DNA of 34,576 nt from a virus. Under the pieces are notes generated by a model. The model saw nothing but the letters and a program-made list of their open reading frames with translations. It ran no database searches and was not told the origin of the DNA. Made by a program: the position numbers and the translations under genes. The stretch covers positions 1 to 34,576 of the IMG/VR virus record IMGVR_UViG_3300009414_000037; one strand, given 5' to 3'. This document shows, piece by piece, positions 520 to 34,460 of the stretch; position 1 is the stretch's first letter, and every line of letters starts with the position of its first letter.

Positions 520-2030
520 TGACTCTTACATCTGAGAAGATAATTGCAGCGGCAGATGCAGCGGAAATGGAGTTTGCCCGAAGGAATTTCATATCCGATG
601 ACCCGTCGTGCCCTGATTTCCTTGACTTTGCAAAAATACTGGAACGAAGCCAGCTCCACGCTGCCGTGGCAGGGGGTGCCACACCATTCAAAAAGTGGGA
701 CCATCTTGCGTCACTGGCAAAACAACTTGTTGACGAGAGGCTGGTGCTGGTCCTGAAGGCGAGGCAGTTGGGTTTTTCGTGGACGGTCGCAGCATATGCC
801 GCATGGCTGGTGCGATTCCACAGGGGAGCGAATGTGCTGATGATAAGCAGGGGGCAGACAGAGGCGTTCCAGCTTCTGGACAAGGTCCGTTTCATCCTCA
901 AGAACCTCCCAGTATCGTGGCACCTGCCGATAAACCCGGATTCCAGGTCAGAAATTGGGATACCCTCCCAGGACGCCAAGATTACTGCCCTGCCCTCCAC
1001 GGAGGACGCGGGACGGTCGGAGACGGCGTCGGTAGTAATACAGGACGAAGCTGACTTCCACGAATACCTTGAGTCGAACTACGCTGCCGTCAAGCCCACG
1101 GTCGATGCCGGTGGGCAGATGATTATGGGCTCTACCGCAAACAAGCGGAAGATGACCAGCCTTTTCAAGGAACTGTACCGCAGTGCCCCGTCCAACGGAT
1201 GGAACACGGTATTCATGCCCTGGCACGCAAGGCCCGGTAGAACGGAGAAATGGTTCGACGGCGTCAGGGACACGATACCGTCGGTAGAACTCTCGGGTAT
1301 GAGCCCCGAACAGTACATGGAGGCGGAATATCCCGGTGACGAGATGGAGGCACTGGCCCCGCCAAGGGCGCAAAGCATATTCGACCGGGAGATGATAGCC
1401 GCGATGGCGGAAGACTGCATAGAGCCTGTGAGGAAACTCGGCCCATCCTCGATATACCAGGAGTCCAGGGCCGCAAGGCGCTATACCGCAGGCACGGATG
1501 TTGCCTCTGGGGTCGGTATGGATTATTCTGTGACGGTGGTGGTGGATATAGCAAGCGGCTATGTCGTTGCCGATCTTGTTACAAACACCCTTCAGCCGGA
1601 GGACTTTGCCCAGGCGTCAGTGGAACTCCTTGAGGCGTACCGAATGCCGTACTGGGGAATAGAAAACAACTTCTCAGACACGGTTATAACGGTTGCGAGG
1701 GACCTGAACTACCCCAAACTGTATCGCAGGAGGGTCGGAAGGGGAAAGCGGGTAAGGCGCGACTACGGGTGGAGGACTGACAGGATGAGCCGCCAGAGGA
1801 TGTTTGATGAACTGAGGGCAGCCTTCAACGCGGGGCATTTGACTATCCCCAATCTGGAGGGTCTGGGACAGTTCTCGACGGTAATAGCGGCGCCGGGGGA
1901 GAAGCCGGAGGCTATGGGGGGAGCCCATGACGACTATGTGATGGCCCTTGGAATAGCCCTGATGGTGAAAGACGATATGGGCATGGCAGGAGGAACGGGG
2001 AAGATAATACAGATGCCTGCCCTCGCATGA
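519..2030 (+). CDS. terL: terminase large subunit
   Basis: This is the ATP-driven DNA packaging motor and headful/cohesive-end nuclease that docks on the portal. At 503 aa it has the usual length. The ATPase domain has a Walker A-like segment KARQLGFS at residues 80-87, a Walker B segment ending in D176-E177-A178 (VVIQDEAD), and a coupling-type GSTANK at 204-209. The C-terminal RNase H-like nuclease shows an acidic residue in each expected strand: D327 in GTDVASG, E382 in IENN, and D471-D472 in GAHDDYVMALGIAL. All key residues are present, so it should be active. It begins inside the TAATG overlap with the preceding basic-protein gene and is followed 47 bases later by the portal gene. Confidence 0.95.
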   Translation: MTLTSEKIIAAADAAEMEFARRNFISDDPSCPDFLDFAKILERSQLHAAVAGGATPFKKWDHLASLAKQLVDERLVLVLKARQLGFSWTVAAYAAWLVRFHRGANVLMISRGQTEAFQLLDKVRFILKNLPVSWHLPINPDSRSEIGIPSQDAKITALPSTEDAGRSETASVVIQDEADFHEYLESNYAAVKPTVDAGGQMIMGSTANKRKMTSLFKELYRSAPSNGWNTVFMPWHARPGRTEKWFDGVRDTIPSVELSGMSPEQYMEAEYPGDEMEALAPPRAQSIFDREMIAAMAEDCIEPVRKLGPSSIYQESRAARRYTAGTDVASGVGMDYSVTVVVDIASGYVVADLVTNTLQPEDFAQASVELLEAYRMPYWGIENNFSDTVITVARDLNYPKLYRRRVGRGKRVRRDYGWRTDRMSRQRMFDELRAAFNAGHLTIPNLEGLGQFSTVIAAPGEKPEAMGGAHDDYVMALGIALMVKDDMGMAGGTGKIIQMPALA

Positions 2031-2077
2031 GCACGGCACCCGATTAAGGGAATGGTACCCGATTATAGGAGTAAAAC

Positions 2078-3970
2078 ATGGCTGACCTCAGAGAACGCCC
2101 CGAGGCAGATGCGATAACACGGTTCCGCTCAAGTATGGGGGAACTGTGGTCCACCGCCCACGACGAATGGCGGGACAACGACGCATACTACAACCGCAAG
2201 TTCAAGGTATGGTCTCAGAACTACCAGGGAAGGCCCATATTTTACGATTCCACCCCTACCCACCTTGTCGATCACGCGGTATCCACGCTAATGAGCTTTA
2301 GCCCGAGGATACACAGGGAGCCGGTCGGTGACACGGAAGACCACAAGAGGGACGCAACAGCCCTTGAACACGGTTTGAAGGCTGTCCTTGACGACGCCGC
2401 GATGCAGGAGCCCGGAATACCCTGGAAGCTGGTGGCACAGTATCTTGTCGCACACGGATATGCCGTGGTCGAAGGCCCGGTTCTGGCAGGTATCGCAGAC
2501 AGGCCCCATGAACCGGACGAAAGTAAGTTCCAGTCCCGTGAAGATTACGAGGCGGCAAGGACATCGTACCGTGCCAACCGGAAATGCTGGAATCCTGTCA
2601 GGATCAGGGTGCCGCATCCGTCCACTGTGCTTATGAACCCCCTGGAAAAGGTGCCGACCATCGCTTTGAAGGCATCGAAGATGACTGTTCAGGAGCTGCA
2701 CGACCAGTCAGTGACTAAAAAGCGTAGCCAGAGAAGGCGTTACGCCGAGATATTCGATGGTGGCGGCAAAGATCCGTGGGACGAGGTCGAGGTATGGGAC
2801 TACTGGACCCCGTACTGGCATGTCAAGCTGGTCGCAGGCGCTACTACGCCGGTATACGGCAGCCCGGTATCAGCCGCCGCAACCCCTGTATGGATGGAAC
2901 GCAATACCTGGGGCTTTGTGCCGTTTGCTCATGCCTTCGCCGGATGGGGGATGCAGACCGCCGATGAACTCGGGGACCCCTCGACACTGGCCCAGGGCAT
3001 ACTCACGCCCAACAAGGAGACGATAAGGAAGAGGACACAGGAGGTATCAGCCTTTCACCAGATACTCCTCCGCTTCGCTTTCGCCCCGATGGGCACAAGC
3101 AGGGACCCCAACACCCTGGCACAGGCGATATCACAGGAAGGGATACTGGAAGGAGACCCACAGGACTTCTGGGTGATGGCCACTCCCGACATACCTGGGT
3201 GGGCACTTCAACTGAAAGCACAAACGGACAGTACCCTTGAGCTGGGTACATACTCCTCCGCCCTTGCGGGGGTAAGGCAGCCAGGGGTTACTACGGTCGG
3301 CCAACAGGCTATACTGAACACCTCGGCAATGCGGATATTCGCGGGCGTCGCGGCCCAGAGGGAACACCTCGCCTCCATAGTGGGCAGCAGGGTTCTGGAA
3401 CTGGTAGACCGGGTATCGGAACTGTCGGCAGGGATAGGCTCGGCAGGAAAGATGCTCAGGAAGTCACAGGTACACAATGTCTATGCTGTACAGGTGCAGT
3501 TCCCCCACGCGGAGCCCGTCATGGAATTGCAGAGGCGGCAGATGGCACTCTCAGAGTTCCAGGCTGGCCTCATAGACCCGACCACATACTACGAACAGGC
3601 AGGATACGAGGCAGGGACCGAGATAAGACAGAGACTCCTTGAAGAAGCGGTCAGAAACCTTCCTTCAGTCAAAGCAAAGATAGAGGCTTTGGTGGCAGAG
3701 CAGATGGGGCTGGCGGATGAAGGGACTGAAGCTGAGATAGGAGGCCAGGTAGCGGGGATGCCCCCAATGAACGGCCAGATGGGTCCGATGGGTCCTCCGA
3801 TGGGAGCGCCAATGGGACCTCCCGGTGGAATGGAAGGGGGAATGCCACCTCCAGGGATGCCCCAAATACCACAGGGTCCGGGGATACCACCCGGTGGAGG
3901 GGCCGCTGATCTGAACGCGATGCTGACGCCGGACACATTCCGGCCGGAAAGGATAGACCTTGCCCGCTAA
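2078..3970 (+). CDS. portal protein (head-tail connector)
   Basis: A 630-residue protein directly after the large terminase, with the size and order expected of a podovirus-type portal that forms the dodecameric ring through which DNA passes. The central part, around residues 403-430, has the Thr/Gln/Ala-rich stretch VTTVGQQAILNTSAMRIFAG followed by a long helical segment, as in phage portals. The last ~75 residues are unusual. Around residues 555-610 the protein is almost entirely Met, Pro and Gly, which should be disordered, and it ends in a short charged tail. Start support is TAGGAG at 2066-2071. The 3' end overlaps the next gene by 11 bases. The assignment rests on context plus general resemblance. 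Confidence 0.85.
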   Translation: MADLRERPEADAITRFRSSMGELWSTAHDEWRDNDAYYNRKFKVWSQNYQGRPIFYDSTPTHLVDHAVSTLMSFSPRIHREPVGDTEDHKRDATALEHGLKAVLDDAAMQEPGIPWKLVAQYLVAHGYAVVEGPVLAGIADRPHEPDESKFQSREDYEAARTSYRANRKCWNPVRIRVPHPSTVLMNPLEKVPTIALKASKMTVQELHDQSVTKKRSQRRRYAEIFDGGGKDPWDEVEVWDYWTPYWHVKLVAGATTPVYGSPVSAAATPVWMERNTWGFVPFAHAFAGWGMQTADELGDPSTLAQGILTPNKETIRKRTQEVSAFHQILLRFAFAPMGTSRDPNTLAQAISQEGILEGDPQDFWVMATPDIPGWALQLKAQTDSTLELGTYSSALAGVRQPGVTTVGQQAILNTSAMRIFAGVAAQREHLASIVGSRVLELVDRVSELSAGIGSAGKMLRKSQVHNVYAVQVQFPHAEPVMELQRRQMALSEFQAGLIDPTTYYEQAGYEAGTEIRQRLLEEAVRNLPSVKAKIEALVAEQMGLADEGTEAEIGGQVAGMPPMNGQMGPMGPPMGAPMGPPGGMEGGMPPPGMPQIPQGPGIPPGGGAADLNAMLTPDTFRPERIDLAR

Positions 3971-4157
3971 AAATGATTTTACAGAAGCCATACTTTCAGT
4001 GATGGGCGAGTACAGACGCCTCAAGAAAGATTCGAGGACTCCTGCTAACAGGACTCCGCCAGTAATGGTCGAAAGGCAAAGGGGTATTAAAGATCCGATA
4101 CAGGACTGGATTGAGCAACACGGTGTGAAGAAACGCCATGTGGAAGGACTATTCTGA
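3960..4157 (+). CDS. small conserved-position protein after portal
   Basis: A 65-residue basic, hydrophilic protein with a TTG start. The start is chosen because AAAGGA at 3948-3953 lies at good distance and because TTG at 3960 is the only one that keeps the overlap with the portal end short. The stop overlaps the next ATG (TGATG at 4155-4159). The sequence is mainly helical, with a motif-like DPIQDWIEQHG near residues 45-55, and resembles no family I can name. Coupling on both sides suggests it is made with the portal and the giant protein, perhaps as a small connector or chaperone. Confidence 0.65.
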   Translation: MPAKNDFTEAILSVMGEYRRLKKDSRTPANRTPPVMVERQRGIKDPIQDWIEQHGVKKRHVEGLF

Positions 4158-7100
4158 TGTCGGAGGAGTCGCAACCAAAATCCCTTCTGGAGATGTGGGA
4201 CGCTCGTGAGATCGATGACAACCAGTCTCAGGAATACGAGGATCAGCTAGACAAAGATTTGGCACGGCTGGCTGAACTCTGGAATAAAATTGATACACAG
4301 ACGGAAGCAAGAAACGTTGACCCAGATCTGGTTAATGAAGCTATGGAACGTGCGGCAGCCGATGCAACCGGCGCAGTGGTGGCTCCTCCAACATTAACTG
4401 TACCTATATCGGTTACTCTTCGGACGCCGTATGACGCAAAAGTCGATGTAAAACCCCTGGTAAGACAGATTACAAACAATATATACCTAAGTATCAGTAA
4501 CCAGTGGAGATCAAGCATTCCGAAGTTTCCTGCACGACAGGGTATGATTAGCTCGTTAGATCCCGATTTCTCAACCACTGATATATACACCTGGGCGGGT
4601 TATGATGGTCCTAGAGTTCTTGATGAAATTTTCCACTTTGTCATTGACAACCTTTTTACGGACCTCGAACAGAACGAAAAGGGCAAATATGAGTGGAATG
4701 AAACTAAATTTCTCAAACAGGACGAAACAGAGAAGAAAAGTCGATTTATTATATCTAAGGATATGAAGTATGCACATCTGATAACGACGGGGAGTATTCC
4801 TATATTACGACAAAGAAGCGAGGAGATGATACGTACGCCTGATTTTGTGGATGACCGCAGGAAGATGTCCATAATTGTCCAGGAGGCGGAAAAAGCCGGA
4901 CACATAGATTCTAGTATGGCATTGCACTATCGAGCAGTTGCAGCAGGCGACATAGAAGATGAGAACTTAAGAAACTATATTCAAAACAATCCAGTCTTAG
5001 TAAACGACTTTGTGTCATGGCTGGATACTGTTGAGACGCGTCAATACGATTACTATGACCCTACAACCGACACAGTACAACCCGGATTTATTACACAACT
5101 TCAAAAAGATAATAAAAAGTTCAGCGCGAATGAAGTCAGGTCACAGATGGAGTCTGAGGCAGACGATCCCCAATTTGACAACGTGACCCTGTTCCCAATC
5201 CCTGAAACCCTTTCAGAGAGTGCCATTGAACGTGAACGATACCAAAGGTATATAACTAGTGGATGGGATCCTGATGATAATTTGTCAGATAACATTGAAA
5301 AAGTCCTGGCAGACCTTTATAACCTGGACCCTAAGACCTCCGATCCGACAGTGAACTCGAAAAACAAAAACGCCAGAACCGAATTGCACAAAGCTGTGAT
5401 ACTAGGTATGAGGGACTGGGCTGTAAAACAAAACCTGGACCTAAATATTCCAGAAGCACAAGAGGCAATATTCGGTGTGGTGGATCATTGGCTATCAGAA
5501 TTAGACCCGGATGCGGCAATTGAGCTACTAGTTGAACAGGAGGAGATGGTAGAGGGATGGAAATTTGCGGAGCTCACTCTAAACACTAAAAAAAGCAGAA
5601 TAGCCGACAAGATAGAAGAGGCTGGAATACGAGATAATTACGGCACTCTTATAATGAAAAAGGATCTTCCTGAGCTCTGGCTGACCGCTATAACCCAGGA
5701 CTATCTAGAGCAGGTACAATCGGCTAAAGATAGAATAAAGGCACCAACTATTGATGAGTTTCTTTCGAAGGTTAAGTACGGACCTGACTTAGTAAGGATA
5801 GGAGGAACAGGGGTTAGGTACGGAAAGGAAGTAGTTCAAGATAGTATCCTGAGCATGGTTCCAGCCGTAGTAAACCAAAATAGGCTGGATAAGGTAACAA
5901 CGAAAAATATAGAAGACTTAGCGAAGGACTTCCTTGGTTCACGGGGTATAAGCTGGGGACAACTTCCACCCGAACATAGAGATTACATAATATATAATAT
6001 GATTGGTCCGTCCTACTTTGAGTATAGGGACCTTCTGAGCAAGGTTGGTCCTTCTACCCAGCTTCCTATAACTACAGAGCAGTATGAGGCTATGGCCGGT
6101 TATGAACCGGAGCCTCCGCAATACGAACGTGACCCCTCGGGTGAAATGGAACACTATACCAGCAATAAAGCCCAGCTTCCTCTTACCAATCTGCTGGAGT
6201 TTGCAAACGATGGGATAATCACCCTGGACGAACGGTATCAACAGCGGATGAAGACCCTCCAGGGTCGCCAGACACTGGCTAAGGAGTTAATCAATAGGTT
6301 CACACCGCCAATGGGCACTCCGGCAACCTATGAACAGTTTACCGAGGCCGGGGGTCTGGACTGGCTGGAAAAATTCAGCTCTCTTGCAGAGGCCCTTGAA
6401 GATAAAGAGTATAACGACTGGTATCAAAAGAATGTCCAGAAAGGTGCCGAAGCAGATAGAAAAGGGGTTGAGAAGGCACAGATCAATACACAGGCTAACC
6501 TAAAGTCTCTTGTAATTGATGAGTTTCGCAAAAGAAATCTGTTACAGCCGGGTGTATCCAATGAGTTCCTGGACAATTTTGACAAGAAGACCCTGCCTTC
6601 AGTTATTAACAATATACTTCTGGCAGGCGGACTGAACCCGGACGAAGACCCTGAACGCCAGGTGGCGGATATAGTGTCCAAATGGACGGCCGATGCGCCT
6701 GCGTATGACTGGCGTGAAGAGGACTACCAGAGACAGTTCCGTTCGGCAGCTCCACCAGCACCGCCGGTACCTGGTTTCCCAGGTTTCCGCGTAGAGCGTC
6801 CGACTCCTTTTAGAATAACAGAGCTTCAGCCCCAGTTAGAACAGTTGGCATATGATCGACCCGAGTTCGCCCAGTATGTACAGAGGCAACTTACATCACC
6901 GTCATTCATGGCATCTTTCCGACAGGCACGCAAGCCTGTGCTTCCTTCATCCATAGGCGGTATTATGGAACAAATACTTGAACCTGGAAGTTTCATCGGA
7001 GAACAGCTAAGAACAGAGCGTTCACCTACTACACAAATATCTCAAAAAGAAGCCGAGCCTGGAGATTTTTCGGCTAGAATGCCTCAGATACCTATTGATC

Positions 7101-7390: not shown

Positions 7391-10300
7391 ATGGCATTCC
7401 ACCGAGGTCATGAAGAAAAGTCTCCAAAACAACAGAGGGGTGGGCTTCCCGGTCTGGAACGACTTCCTGCCGAATTTGGTGCAGGTGCCCGTTTTGCCAC
7501 AGATAACGGCTTTGCGCCCAGTGCCGAGCAGGCAGCACGAAGTGCGGGGATACGTGCCCGTGGAATGACAGGTTCGTATTACACCGGTGAAGGCAGGCCG
7601 TGGCAACCGGCGAAACCTGATCCGTTATCGCCTATGGACGCACCTGCATTTCAATTTCCTGCACATACTATGCAGGCAGGATGGCCTAGCCGTGTAGATA
7701 GTGTAGTTGAAGAGGAACGTAGATTTCAGTTTCCAATGCCGCTGTTTCCTGGATTTACAGTGCCTGTACCCCGTATGGATATCCACAGGATGGAGTCGCC
7801 CATCCAGGAGAAAGATGTTAAAGACCCAACCTACTTTACAGCGGATAACTGGCGTGAGATATGGAAGTTATCCCAAAAAGGACTCAGAGGTCTAGGTACT
7901 ATTCAGTCCACAATATATGATCCTACTATTTTGCCGGTTCTATTCGGACTAGTGCCTGATAAACCGCCTGCCTCTGATTCTGAAGCGGTATCATCCTGGA
8001 ACTACCAGGCTCTTGGTTTTTACAATTTTATGGAAGAGAAAGAGCGGGCAGCAGAACAGGAAATCAGTAATGTAGATGCAAGGGTGCTTAGCTTACTACC
8101 GGCTTTTCAACGTAAGTGGATGACTCTTAAGTTAGCTGGTGAATATTACGGACAACAGGCAAAAGAGAGCCTGAATCTTTTTGAGGCAACCGGCAGGGCA
8201 TCCGCTCCTCTTATAGGATATCTTTTGTGCCAGCCAGGATGGCAGGAACCGGGGGTATGTGACCGTTATGACATTCTCCAAAATAAGGGTGGAGGCAGAG
8301 GAGGTTGGTTAGGACAATGGGAGAACTACGCTGCGGCTGCTGAACAGTCCAGAGCGGCGGGGGAAATACAGGGATGGAAATGGCTGCTTGCAGAAGCTAT
8401 AGCTGATATAACTAATTATATTCCCATCGGCAAGGGGGTGGCCGTCGTTCGTGGAGGTAAATCAGTACTTGTTAACCCTGTCAAACCGTCAAAGGAGTTT
8501 ATTAAAGAGGGTCTGACTGCAATAGATGTGGAGAAGACCAAAGAATTATGGCAAGCGGCTATAGAGGCACCGAATACAGGAATCGTACATAGCAATCCTG
8601 ATCTGGTTGTTAGAGCAAGACATCGTATGGTTAAAGCAACGGAATATATTGATGATCCTGACACTCTTAGGTCTCCATTCGTACCGCGGAAGCACACTGT
8701 TAAGGAACTGCTTGAGGCTGGTGATTATGACGAAGCATCAATATTTGCTCCATGGGAAAAGAAAGCTGGCTATATAAGAGCAAGGACTATTAAGGAACTT
8801 ACTGATCAACTCAGCATAACTAATCGGGATAGCAGTATATTAAGGAGGATAGAGGGAAAGGCTACCTATCAAATAGAAGATGAGTTCGGTGTCAAGTATT
8901 GGGATGAATTTACACCCAGCGAGGAAAACTTTATAGAAGAGGCACTTGATATTGATCTTACCAGGTTTATCTACGATGATGCTGGATTGGCTAGGATACG
9001 AAAAGCTGTGGGTTCTGAACTTAGGAGGAATGAAACCAGGATTCAAACATTCCGTGCAAGGATAGCTGAAAAGACTGAACTGGATCTTGCGGCCAGAGAA
9101 GCTGCGATGCAGCTTGGTATTGAACGTATTGGTAAGGTAACGGGAACGGTAGATCCTCCAGCGGCACCTCTTCACTGGCACGCCACACAGGACTGGCATG
9201 GCTATCAGGCTTACTACAAACCTGGGGTAGTGACAGACCTTGAGAATACTATCGAAGACATAAGAGGTGTTATGGATCCTACTCCGTCTATAGGTAAGAG
9301 TGCGGAGGATGTACGTGCCATGATACAGAGCACTCCGGGAGTGACACGTCCTGGTTTGTCTCAGCCCAAGCGATTAATGTTCGATAATAAGCAATATGAG
9401 ATTCTCAAGGGTTTCATACAGGGAGAAGGGATTCCCTTTGATAGAGACCCGGAGATGCTGGGGCGCTTTGAGATATCCCCTGTTTACGGTGACCGCCAGT
9501 TCATAGTTGGTGCATACAATGATCCTACAAAGAAACTAGCTAGCGGAATGCCGGAAAAGCTGTATATTACCTACAATCCCTCAGAGAATACCTGGGGACT
9601 ACAGGCTTACATGGGGGAAAAGCCTGTGTTCATTGACCGTCCTACAGGAGAAAATCTTAGTAATAAATTTGCGAGTACTATAAAACAGATTGATGACCAG
9701 ATAGACGCTATTGATTCACGTTTGGCAGGGGAGCCGCGTTCGAGGAGGATGAGGAGGCGTGGATGGGTTACAGAAGCGCATAGAAATCTGTCCGATCAGC
9801 GGGCGGCTTTGGAAAATAGAAAACGACTTCTCCAGGAAGAGGTATCGAAAGGCGATCTGGAATTTAGCCCGCGTGTCCAAGGAACGGCACCTTCCGTAGA
9901 TGAGATTGAGGCTTTCACCAAAGTTTGGGACGATATTTACGGTGCACAGATTGCGGAGGCAGTCCGTCCGTCCAGGGGCGTGGGAGTGGGACCCTCGGAT
10001 AGTGGCCCATTTTTCGCGTTCAACGGAGAATCAGGAGTAAGAAGCGGAGGGGCAGCTACACCAATTACTGAGGAAGCGGCGGCAGTGTACGAGGGAATCA
10101 TGGAAGCCATTAAAGTTACGGATAATGCGTACGATGCCGCAGAAAAAGGGATTAGGGATGGGGCAACAAAACTGGGCCTACGAGCGGAAGATGTTCCAAG
10201 GCCCCCAGGGGTTGCGTCGTACAAGGGTGCAACGCCCGGTGACTCTGCTGGTTATTTGGATCAGTTGCTACATGCCTTGCCCAACAAGAAAGTTCAGACG

Positions 10301-32430: not shown

Positions 32431-32678
32431 TGTGTTACCTCCGCGACATCAATATCACTCCAAGGAAATGCAATCGAGACTGTTGCGCAATCCATAAGCT
32501 CCTCTAGGGCCTCGTTCATCTCCGGGTTTCGGCTGGTAAACTGAACCACAACCTTGAATTTGTTGTCCCGCAAAGTCCTCAACCAGTTTCTATGGTCGCG
32601 GGCGTTGCTGTGGTAACTTTTTATTTCACCGATCAGCAATACACTATCGGTGTACATGCCTTGTCCTGTTTTTGTCAT
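32427..32678 (-). CDS. hypothetical small alpha/beta protein
   Basis: 83 residues with AAAGGAGG before ATG 32678. The sequence is soluble and mixed, with a hydrophobic strand FKVVVQFTS around residues 40-49 and a final SIAFPWSDIDVAEV. It overlaps the zinc-ribbon gene as ATGA. No family is recognised. Confidence 0.65.
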   Translation of the reverse strand: MTKTGQGMYTDSVLLIGEIKSYHSNARDHRNWLRTLRDNKFKVVVQFTSRNPEMNEALEELMDCATVSIAFPWSDIDVAEVTQ

Positions 32679-33016: not shown

Positions 33017-33237
33017 TACACCACCTCCTCGATGCGATAGTTTGGATATTGTCCAGCCACTTGGCGCTCATCGTCGTAGTCGTATGGCTCGACAAATGCC
33101 AGGTGTATTGCATCGCGAAGTGATGCGCTCCGGGGCCCCTCATACACCCAGACATCAACGCCATCATCGACTGTGAAGAATTGTTTGCTCGAGCTATGGT
33201 CAACCTTTCCTACGTAGTAGCAGCCTAGGTCCATCAT
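33016..33237 (-). CDS. hypothetical small protein (73 aa)
   Basis: From ATG 33237, overlapping the preceding 33-codon gene as ATGA. The protein starts MMDLGCYYVGKVDHSSSKQ and is acidic, with a probable beta fold. The frame is open further to a GTG at 33342, but that upstream part is less plausible and conflicts with the small gene at 33234-33335, which has the better ribosome site. Unknown function. Confidence 0.6.
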   Translation of the reverse strand: MMDLGCYYVGKVDHSSSKQFFTVDDGVDVWVYEGPRSASLRDAIHLAFVEPYDYDDERQVAGQYPNYRIEEVV

Positions 33238-33335
33238 TGTTGCACCGCCATCTGGCGTAAGATCTTCGCCATTTCCACTTCCGACATGTAGCCGAAGTCC
33301 ATCAGTGCCTGACACTCTCGCTCTATCTGTTCCAT
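33234..33335 (-). CDS. 33-codon small protein directly after hammerhead 1
   Basis: ATG 33335 lies seven bases after AGGAGG and encodes a 33-residue helical, acidic protein (EQIERECQALMDFGYMSEVE). It stops with TGA overlapping the next ATG (ATGA). This is the first gene after the cleavage site of the ribozyme at 33364-33419: its leader after self-cutting would be 33 nt. It is short but the ribosome site and tight overlap make it credible. Confidence 0.55.
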   Translation of the reverse strand: MEQIERECQALMDFGYMSEVEMAKILRQMAVQQ

Positions 33336-33363
33336 TGTTCACCCTCCTGTTTTATTTTGGTTT

Positions 33364-33419
33364 CCATCGACCCTCGTTTGAGGGTTTCGGCTGGTAACGA
33401 ACCAGCCTCATCAGGATGG
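33364..33419 (-). ncRNA. hammerhead ribozyme, type I, copy 1
   Basis: On the minus strand the RNA has stem I (CCAUC 33419-33415 with GAUGG 33368-33364), the core CUGAUGA (33414-33408), stem II (GGCUGGU 33407-33401 with ACCAGCC 33395-33389, loop UCGUU), the conserved GAA (33388-33386), and stem III (ACCCUC 33385-33380 with GAGGGU 33375-33370, loop AAAC). Cleavage should follow C17 at 33369. All catalytic nucleotides of the hammerhead fold (C3 to A9, G12, A13, A14, and the A15.1-U16.1 pair) are present. Both ends open in stem I, so it is type I. It begins four bases after the TAA of the gene 33424-33663. The GGAAACC after stem I is also shared with copy 2. Confidence 0.93.
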
Positions 33420-33423
33420 TGTA

Positions 33424-33663
33424 TTAGTAGCCGTACACGACCTGTTCATCAGTTGGCTGTTCGTCAAAAGCCCAGTGAATGTATCCTTCGTTATAGAAAG
33501 CACCCTCAAAGTTCGCCCTGTCATTTTCCGCAGGAGTTCTCGATGCACAGTCCGGATGGTAGGTATTGCCCCTGCCTTCGTGAGTAATCCACTGGCCCTT
33601 TAAGATCCCCCCACATTTCGTTTCATTTTGATACCGACACTGACCGTTAAATTTTGCCTTCAT
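33424..33663 (-). CDS. small putative zinc-binding protein (79 aa)
   Basis: C9, C17, H36 and C39 (CRYQNETKC, then TYHPDC) suggest a zinc knuckle of a type seen in phage unknowns. The C-terminus is acidic with aromatic residues (YIHWAFDEQPTDEQ). AAAGGAG ten bases before the ATG supports the start. It lies exactly between the two ribozymes, so after both cuts its message would be a separate unit. Confidence 0.65.
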   Translation of the reverse strand: MKAKFNGQCRYQNETKCGGILKGQWITHEGRGNTYHPDCASRTPAENDRANFEGAFYNEGYIHWAFDEQPTDEQVVYGY

Positions 33664-33695
33664 CTGATTTCAACTCCTTTCCTTTTTTATGGTTT

Positions 33696-33751
33696 CCGTA
33701 GACCCTCGTTTGAGGGTTTCGGCTGGTAGCCAACCAGCCTCATCAGTACGG
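33696..33751 (-). ncRNA. hammerhead ribozyme, type I, copy 2
   Basis: The same architecture as copy 1, shifted by 332 bases: stem I (CCGUA 33751-33747 with UACGG 33700-33696), core CUGAUGA, stem II with loop UGGCU, GAA, stem III with AAAC loop, and cleavage after C17 at 33701. Relative to copy 1, the two pairs changed in stem I (A-U to G-C, and C-G to A-U) are compensatory, and only two loop II bases differ elsewhere in the 62-base match. It starts ten bases after the TAG of the gene 33762-34103, and its 3' product would begin 37 bases before the next ATG. Confidence 0.93.
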
Positions 33752-33761
33752 TTAGAATTTG

Positions 33762-34103
33762 CTACAATAGTTCGCTGATTATCTTGGTAATAATCACCTT
33801 GGTTGCCAGCCCCACTTCAGGTTGCCATCCGCCGTTATCAGGGTTGTGTCCCTCACCCAGCGCGGCGCATATGGTGAACGCTTCATCGGTGTTGAGTCTG
33901 CCTATTGTGGCGGCTCTTGTTTGGTGGTTTTGGAAGTCTGTATGCTCTTTAACTGTTAGAGCCATGTTTTGATCGAGCGCTGCGAGGCTGGCTCCGATGG
34001 GTTTACCCTGTAGGTCAACGCCACTCTCGACCAGTTTGTCTATCCGCCCTTGCTGGCGAATGATAGCAGCATCTACTCTATTTACGTCATTGTAGAATTT
34101 CAT
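33762..34103 (-). CDS. hypothetical early protein (113 aa)
   Basis: A 113-residue protein with a helical N-terminus (DAAIIRQQGRIDKLVESGVD) and a C-terminus ending KVIITKIISELL. No family recognised. AGGAGG lies eleven bases before ATG 34103, rather far, and CAGGAT is closer. Its stop is followed by ribozyme copy 2. Confidence 0.65.
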   Translation of the reverse strand: MKFYNDVNRVDAAIIRQQGRIDKLVESGVDLQGKPIGASLAALDQNMALTVKEHTDFQNHQTRAATIGRLNTDEAFTICAALGEGHNPDNGGWQPEVGLATKVIITKIISELL

Positions 34104-34126
34104 ATCCTGTTCACCCTCCTATGTTG

Positions 34127-34195
34127 TTATATTTCCCCACCGGCCTTGCCACCGGCGTTGGGGTTTACGTCCCGCCCGGAGGCGGGATGGCTCAC
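34127..34195 (-). CDS. possible 22-residue peptide in structured leader
   Basis: GTG 34195 lies seven bases after GGAGGA and opens a 22-codon frame ending TAA at 34127-34129. The peptide is Gly/Asn/Pro-rich (RDVNPNAGGKAGGEI). It coincides with two stable hairpins, so selection may act on RNA structure instead. Translation is plausible but unproven. Confidence 0.3.
   Translation of the reverse strand: MSHPASGRDVNPNAGGKAGGEI
34135..34186 (-). other. stable hairpins between early genes
   Basis: On the minus strand, CCCGCC and GGCGGG (34171-34186) close a UCCG tetraloop of the very stable UNCG type. Then CCCC (34163-34160) pairs with GGGG (34138-34135) around an inner GCCGG/CCGGU stem. The element lies in the same kind of gap as the ribozymes but has no CUGAUGA core. 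It may affect processing, stability or translation of the following gene. Confidence 0.5.
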
Positions 34196-34200
34196 CAATT

Positions 34201-34223
34201 TGTCCTCCGTTTGATCTATCTAC
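34201..34223 (-). repeat. 23-bp perfect repeat at gene end, copy 1
   Basis: Identical to 34438-34460. On the minus strand it carries the TAG stop region (TAGATAGATCAAACG) and then GGAGGACA, a ribosome binding site. It follows the 69-residue gene. Confidence 0.9.
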
Positions 34224-34425
34224 CGTCGAGCAGTTTCGCCCTCTCCAATTCTTCCTGTATCAGTTGAGATATTCGCGCCCCGGCACGAGCGAGATAATGT
34301 GCCAGCGCTCTTTCATTGTCATTAAGATCCATTGTGGCGGTTGTATCTTGCGCCCCGGCAACATGCGCTAGTGCTATTTGTTTTGCTGCGGCCAGAATTC
34401 GCGGATTATTCCATGGATTGTCCAT
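34216..34425 (-). CDS. hypothetical small helical protein (69 aa)
   Basis: A 69-residue Ala-rich helical protein with two probable helices (ILAAAKQIALAHVAGA and ARISQLIQEELERAKLL). GGAGGACAGGAG lies upstream of ATG 34425. The stop lies in a repeated 23-bp cassette. Function unknown. Confidence 0.6.
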   Translation of the reverse strand: MDNPWNNPRILAAAKQIALAHVAGAQDTTATMDLNDNERALAHYLARAGARISQLIQEELERAKLLDGR

Positions 34426-34437
34426 TGTTATTACTCC

Positions 34438-34460
34438 TGTCCTCCGTTTGATCTATCTAC
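34438..34460 (-). repeat. 23-bp perfect repeat at gene end, copy 2
   Basis: The partner of 34201-34223, placed over the stop of the truncated gene at the window edge and the ribosome site of the 69-residue gene. The two copies are 237 bases apart. Confidence 0.9.

Follow-up and report, generated by a model that had tools for sequence, protein, structure and literature searches.

Two type I hammerhead ribozymes and a probable twister between small genes of an uncultured tailed phage

In an uncultured tailed phage, two complete type I hammerhead ribozymes with GUC cleavage triplets are found between small genes of the minus strand, their class being confirmed at the sequence level from the core, the helices, covariation and a tertiary contact. 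The window, i.e., the whole stretch of DNA analysed here, corresponds to positions 1 to 34,576 (34,576 nt) of IMG/VR record IMGVR_UViG_3300009414_000037. One gene upstream of the second copy, it probably also carries a twister ribozyme of type P5. Together, the hammerheads and the probable twister are likely to divide a polycistronic transcript of the phage into mRNAs of one gene each. This reading is based on the structure and covariation of the elements, on a placement rule, on their shared strand and on the occurrence of two classes of ribozyme in slots of one kind, from which we infer activity, product ends and benefit.

A preliminary description had placed one element at 33696-33751 and a copy with the same fold 332 bases away. 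These coordinates run exactly from stem I to stem I and omit the pseudoknot tail at 33690-33695; the strand, the pseudoknot, the third (twister) ribozyme and the placement rule were also absent from that description. Both copies do fold as hammerheads, on the minus strand (Table 1). Copy 2 reads CCGUA-CUGAUGA-GGCUGG-UUGGCUA-CCAGCC-GAA-ACCCUC-AAAC-GAGGGU-C-UACGG-AAACCA and copy 1 reads CCAUC-CUGAUGA-GGCUGG-UUCGUUA-CCAGCC-GAA-ACCCUC-AAAC-GAGGGU-C-GAUGG-AAACCA. The copies are spaced by 332 nt and are 89% identical over 70 nt. As had been described, they differ at six of 62 nt, four of these differences forming two compensatory pairs in stem I and the other two lying in loop II. The core motifs CTGATGA, GAAA and GTC are present in both, in the type I arrangement (CUGANGA ... 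GAAA ... NUH, A15.1-U16.1). There are three helices (5, 6-7 and 6 pairs), with loops closing stems II and III and stem I left open, and the minimum free energy fold agrees. Either copy folds as a three-way junction with a z-score of about -4.5, equalled by 0 of 200 shuffles. All 17 stem pairs are unbroken in each copy; when six substitutions were introduced at random, the core and all pairs were kept in 0.4% of trials, and all pairs were kept together with two or more double changes in 0.03%.

When a covariance model (R1) was built on 24 hammerheads from other phages, the window being excluded, and run over the whole window, it matched only the sites of copies 1 and 2. Over all loci, the structural hammerhead search found 183 hammerheads in forward sequences vs. 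0 in reversed ones. At 32524-32539, 16 nt are identical to the stem II / GAAAC portion of the hammerhead; this match was rejected as a third copy because the rest of the core is missing and the position is inside an ORF.

Table 1. Positions of the ribozymes, their parts and the neighbouring genes (window coordinates unless a contig is named; SD, Shine-Dalgarno sequence).
Feature	Position	Strand	Basis
69-aa ORF upstream of the twister	34216-34425	-	Sequence
Probable type-P5 twister; predicted cut U34167/A34166 (by homology)	34140-34196	-	RF02684, 32.1 bits
113-aa gene, twister to hammerhead copy 2; SD AGGAGG 34115-34120	33762-34103	-	ORF
Hammerhead copy 2, type I, including 3' pseudoknot tail	33690-33751	-	Model R1, 80.2 bits, E 6e-21; fold z -4.57; structural search
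Copy 2 loop II pseudoknot part UGGC, 3 of 4 pairs with ACCA at 33690-33693	33729-33732	-	Covarying helix in relatives
Copy 2 predicted cut, GUC / U	33700-33701, between 33701 and 33700	-	C17 position in hammerhead core, from the family
79-aa gene, between hammerhead copies 2 and 1; SD AGGAG 33674-33678	33424-33663	-	Sequence, ORF
Hammerhead copy 1, type I, including 3' tail	33358-33419	-	Model R1, 75.1 bits, E 1.8e-19; fold z -4.46
Copy 1 loop II pseudoknot part UCGU, 3 of 4 pairs with ACCA at 33358-33361, C.C mismatch	33397-33400	-	Sequence vs. covariation table
Copy 1 predicted cut, GUC / G	33368-33369, between 33369 and 33368	-	C17 position in hammerhead core, from the family
33-aa ORF downstream of copy 1; SD AGGAGG 33343-33348	33234-33335	-	Sequence, ORF
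CCTA/GAA element copies	L003 3943-3991, 7644-7691, 7922-7969 (approximate)	+	Pattern

Two copies alone are thin evidence with little power; relatives were therefore gathered, by DNA pattern scans of viral contigs, and the comparative set makes the evidence strong. It consists of 24 hammerheads from other phages sharing the same 19-nt stem-loop II. In this set, 97.6% of cells are paired and 134 cells carry two-sided changes, vs. 37 in shuffles, while every slid version of the alignment is less than 44% paired. Two-sided changes occur at 14 of the 17 helix pairs. Stem I variants that do not pair and losses of the core had been named as possible objections, and both were sought. In stem I, 97.5% of cells pair and all five pairs show two-sided changes; the core is invariant except at the tolerated position of CUGANGA. 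Since the comparative set covaries and both copies lie between genes, the earlier proposal that selection acts on RNA structure and not on protein is supported.

An offset scan of the alignment revealed a fourth helix, a pseudoknot pairing loop II positions 2-5 with the tail 8-11 nt after the cut. It is paired in 92.7% of cells of the 24 sequences, with two-sided changes at three of its four pairs. In a second hammerhead set, all four pairs form in 56 of 61 cases vs. about 31 of 61 with shuffled tails, most of these hammerheads having been selected for UGG in the loop. A tertiary contact from stem/loop II to the stem I side thus covaries in relatives, and three of its four pairs are found in each window copy. 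Both loop II differences sit in this pseudoknot, so that one pair is swapped for another. The changes between the copies are therefore exactly compensatory, as first described, in stem I but not in the pseudoknot, where copies 1 and 2 are each short of a different pair. The pair that is mismatched (C.C) in copy 1 is formed in all 24 comparison sequences, and from this mismatch copy 1 may be predicted to cleave more slowly.

Both hammerheads and twisters were recognised in bacteria and phages more than 10 years ago. The window copies have the same core and type I topology as Rfam family RF00163 (Hammerhead_1), but searching them with this model at E<=10 gave no match. Canonical hammerheads in five other records also fall under the 34-bit cut-off of RF00163. 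A gathering-level search with the Rfam hammerhead models gave no match at the window copies either, RF03152 reaching 25.7 of 56.3 bits. The RF00163 model covers this phage hammerhead group poorly, and because standard Rfam cut-offs miss the group, it is under-annotated.

The match of the third element to the twister-P5 model is full-length (positions 1-58 of 58), in an alignment without non-standard pairs, and the conserved positions UAA, CAA, CCGGU, CAAG and CCGG are all present. Its E-value is 3.8e-4 on 3 kb, or 1e-6 as a single-family search, and it is termed a probable twister because its score is under the Rfam gathering cut-off of 37.6 bits. The model found no twister in 14 control genomes. 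Among 30 whole records, in which R1 detects at most eight hammerheads per record, twister-P5 matches occur in four, including the window, always near hammerheads and on the same strand; one of the four matches, in record G026, exceeds the Rfam cut-off. In the other three records, at least two twisters are directly upstream of an SD sequence and an ATG. Close to the window twister, an exact 23-nt repeat, TGTCCTCCGTTTGATCTATCTAC, is found at 34201-34223 and 34438-34460. On the minus strand it ends with the SD-like GGAGGACA, one copy preceding a gene and the other the twister.

Besides a terminase, the window encodes large genes arranged in a long block on the plus strand. Its minus-strand block contains an AAA ATPase together with numerous small unassigned genes, and it is here that the hammerheads and the probable twister are located. 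All three sit between the stop codon of the upstream gene and the SD sequence and ATG of the next. Copy 2 begins 10 nt past the stop of the 113-aa gene and its predicted cut precedes the ATG of the 79-aa gene by 37 nt. For copy 1, stem I begins 4 nt past the stop of the 79-aa gene and the predicted cut is 33 nt upstream of the ATG of the 33-aa ORF. In both cases the SD sequence lies between the hammerhead tail and the downstream ATG. Hence, in this same-strand cluster, the 113-aa gene has the twister on one side and a hammerhead on the other, and hammerheads flank the 79-aa gene on both sides. In the ribozyme region, intrinsic terminators and sigma-70 promoters were not in excess over shuffles. 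Pfam and PHROG searches gave no match for the 113-aa and 79-aa products. No match to the phage was returned by megablast against 50,697 phage records; no phage record was found to encode the 113-aa protein, and an AAA-ATPase peptide-pattern scan of viral contigs found none. Two other viral contigs encode relatives of the 113-aa protein (59-65% identical), and neither has a hammerhead at that place. In one contig (L004), a long stable hairpin with internal loops (about 8360-8422, plus strand; fold z -4.1, no Rfam match) lies between the 113-aa relative and the next gene.

The placement seen in the window recurs in other phages. We surveyed 240 hammerheads in about 150 viral contigs, in two sets: the first holds 172 distinct hammerheads from 97 contigs, including the window, and the second was collected without reference to stem III. 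Matches in L010-L012 and L015 cover model positions 6-55 only and were excluded from the clear hammerheads. Wherever a contig carries several copies, all are on one strand (46 of 46 contigs in the first set and 11 of 11 in the second, 57 in total). Multi-copy contigs of the first set carry up to eight copies with a median spacing of 594 nt; in the 92.7-kb contig L069, eight hammerheads are found on one strand within 5.6 kb (1341-6905, plus strand). Among the 161 first-set hammerheads with enough flank, 71% have an SD sequence and an ATG at -5 to 60 nt from the cut (median 28 nt); random positions gave 13% and the opposite strand 1%. In the second set, 81% of 63 have them within 60 nt (median 30 nt), vs. 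14% and 11% in the controls; as any intergenic element of a compact phage operon is near a start codon, this effect is partly expected, and it is the strand and the closeness that are informative. A stop codon is found near stem I, upstream, in 96% of the first set (median offset 0), a figure inflated by the UGA that the hammerhead core itself contains. The placement rule, with elements of mixed classes on the same strand, set between stop and SD and cut about 28-30 nt before the ATG, points to intercistronic mRNA processing.

Such processing could proceed as follows in the window. The minus-strand polycistronic transcript would fold locally at gene boundaries and then cut itself. With cleavage at 34167/34166, 33701/33700 and 33369/33368, an mRNA of about 466 nt would be freed for the 113-aa gene and one of 332 nt for the 79-aa gene. 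The mRNAs would begin with a 5'-hydroxyl and a short SD-bearing leader (37 or 33 nt from hammerhead cut to ATG) and end with a folded ribozyme body carrying a 2',3'-cyclic phosphate. The benefit would likely be a separate stability and translation for each gene. A gain in stability may be expected because RNase E is stimulated by a 5' monophosphate, in place of which these mRNAs would have a hydroxyl, and because a structured 3' end resists exonucleases, arguments that come from E. coli-type bacteria and are extended here to this phage. Cleavage is not essential for the 113-aa gene family, as the relative in L004 has no ribozyme between it and the upstream gene, which it overlaps. According to Perreault et al. 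(2011; PMC3088659), clustered prophage hammerheads cleave polycistronic RNAs of about 2 kb in vitro; cleavage in vitro was likewise seen for tandem hammerheads from three bacteria and, for the A. tumefaciens triple, in E. coli as well.

Alternatively, cleavage might be regulatory and not constitutive: switched by translation of the upstream gene, by a ligand or by a protein, it would set the stability or translation of the downstream gene. The proximity of the cuts to the ATG would suit such a role, and because stop codons are often within stem I or the core, or adjacent to them, terminating ribosomes could keep the ribozyme unfolded. Yet the hammerheads have no aptamer-like extension, stems II and III being short hairpins. 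Moreover, the genes downstream share no common function; most have no assigned family, and the matches include an anti-restriction protein, a DNA invertase, an integrase, a primase and an exonuclease. We regard regulation as unlikely.

Somewhat less likely still is a circular or re-joined RNA, in which, in the manner of retrozymes, the ribozyme or the RtcB of the host would ligate the segment between two cuts to give a small circular mRNA. One small gene is indeed bounded by two type I hammerheads on the same strand, and in other phages four stem I pairs can form crosswise in 61% of adjacent pairs, vs. 9% between contigs. Across 87 adjacent pairs in multi-hammerhead contigs, stem I and the tail are shared more (0.75 and 0.74) than stems II and III (0.57 and 0.58), although duplication or a shared leader may be enough to account for a common stem I. 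The window pair departs from this pattern, stem I being its most divergent part; differing (orthogonal) stems I were rejected as a general rule, since adjacent copies elsewhere usually have the same stem I. The stem I changes in the window weaken cross-pairing, to three of five pairs between the 5' strand of copy 1 and the 3' strand of copy 2 and to four of five in the other combination, and this incomplete pairing disfavours circles here. In addition, a search by Perreault et al. for products that were circular or spliced was negative (PMC3088659). Finally, inert or mobile duplicates, copied into gaps and now without function, are a highly improbable explanation: copies 1 and 2 are close duplicates, but their stem I changes are compensatory, the core is invariant across phages, strand and placement are strict, and an unrelated ribozyme class occupies the same kind of slot.

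Cleavage into single-gene mRNAs thus remains the preferred reading, and it leads to a wider idea, which we put forward tentatively and hold to be rather doubtful: many uncultured phages would have a dedicated stop-to-SD slot for any self-cleaving class, hammerhead, twister and perhaps a further element seen in viral contig L003. If true, ribozyme-punctuated operons would be a general strategy of phage gene expression. The L003 element, AGCCG-CCTA-(variable 10-bp hairpin)-GAA-CGGCT, occurs in three copies with compensating hairpins (Table 1). Each copy is just upstream of an SD sequence and an ATG, one of them directly 5' of a relative of the 113-aa gene. It is possibly another ribozyme class in the same slot. 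An Rfam search of the element gave no match, and a pattern scan found it in L003 only; a CCTA/GAA match in L169/L212 was rejected as a further copy, being judged part of a hammerhead.

Clustered phage hammerheads as such are already known. Passages of Perreault et al. (2011; PMC3088659) describe clusters in bacteria and prophages in which, likewise, several hammerheads flank single phage genes and pseudoknots tie stems I and II, and processing into single-gene mRNAs was already proposed there. Their prophage examples mix hammerhead types and are near integrase and ardA genes, whereas the genes around the window copies are small and unassigned, and a probable twister is close by; a quantified stop-ribozyme-SD-ATG rule is not found in the passages on these clusters. 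The same source, where it deals with haloviruses HF1/HF2, places an HHphage hammerhead 13 nt upstream of a start codon, with a mapped 5' end of a transcript no more than 3 nt from the cut; these differ in being archaeal viruses with a variant hammerhead before an early helicase gene (PMC3088659). An enrichment of hammerheads and twisters around each other and around Mu-like phage genes, where the association is strongest, is also on record, its reason being called unknown in 2023 (PMC10085705). As in the window, the two classes are close together in phage DNA; beyond that report, both are here between genes and on the same strand, and a twister is found beside hammerheads in three other phages. 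The exact RNA ends predicted here make the purpose of this association testable with transcript data. Compared with the open-licence literature, the present analysis adds the quantified slot rule, the two classes in one kind of slot and the finding that Rfam misses this group.
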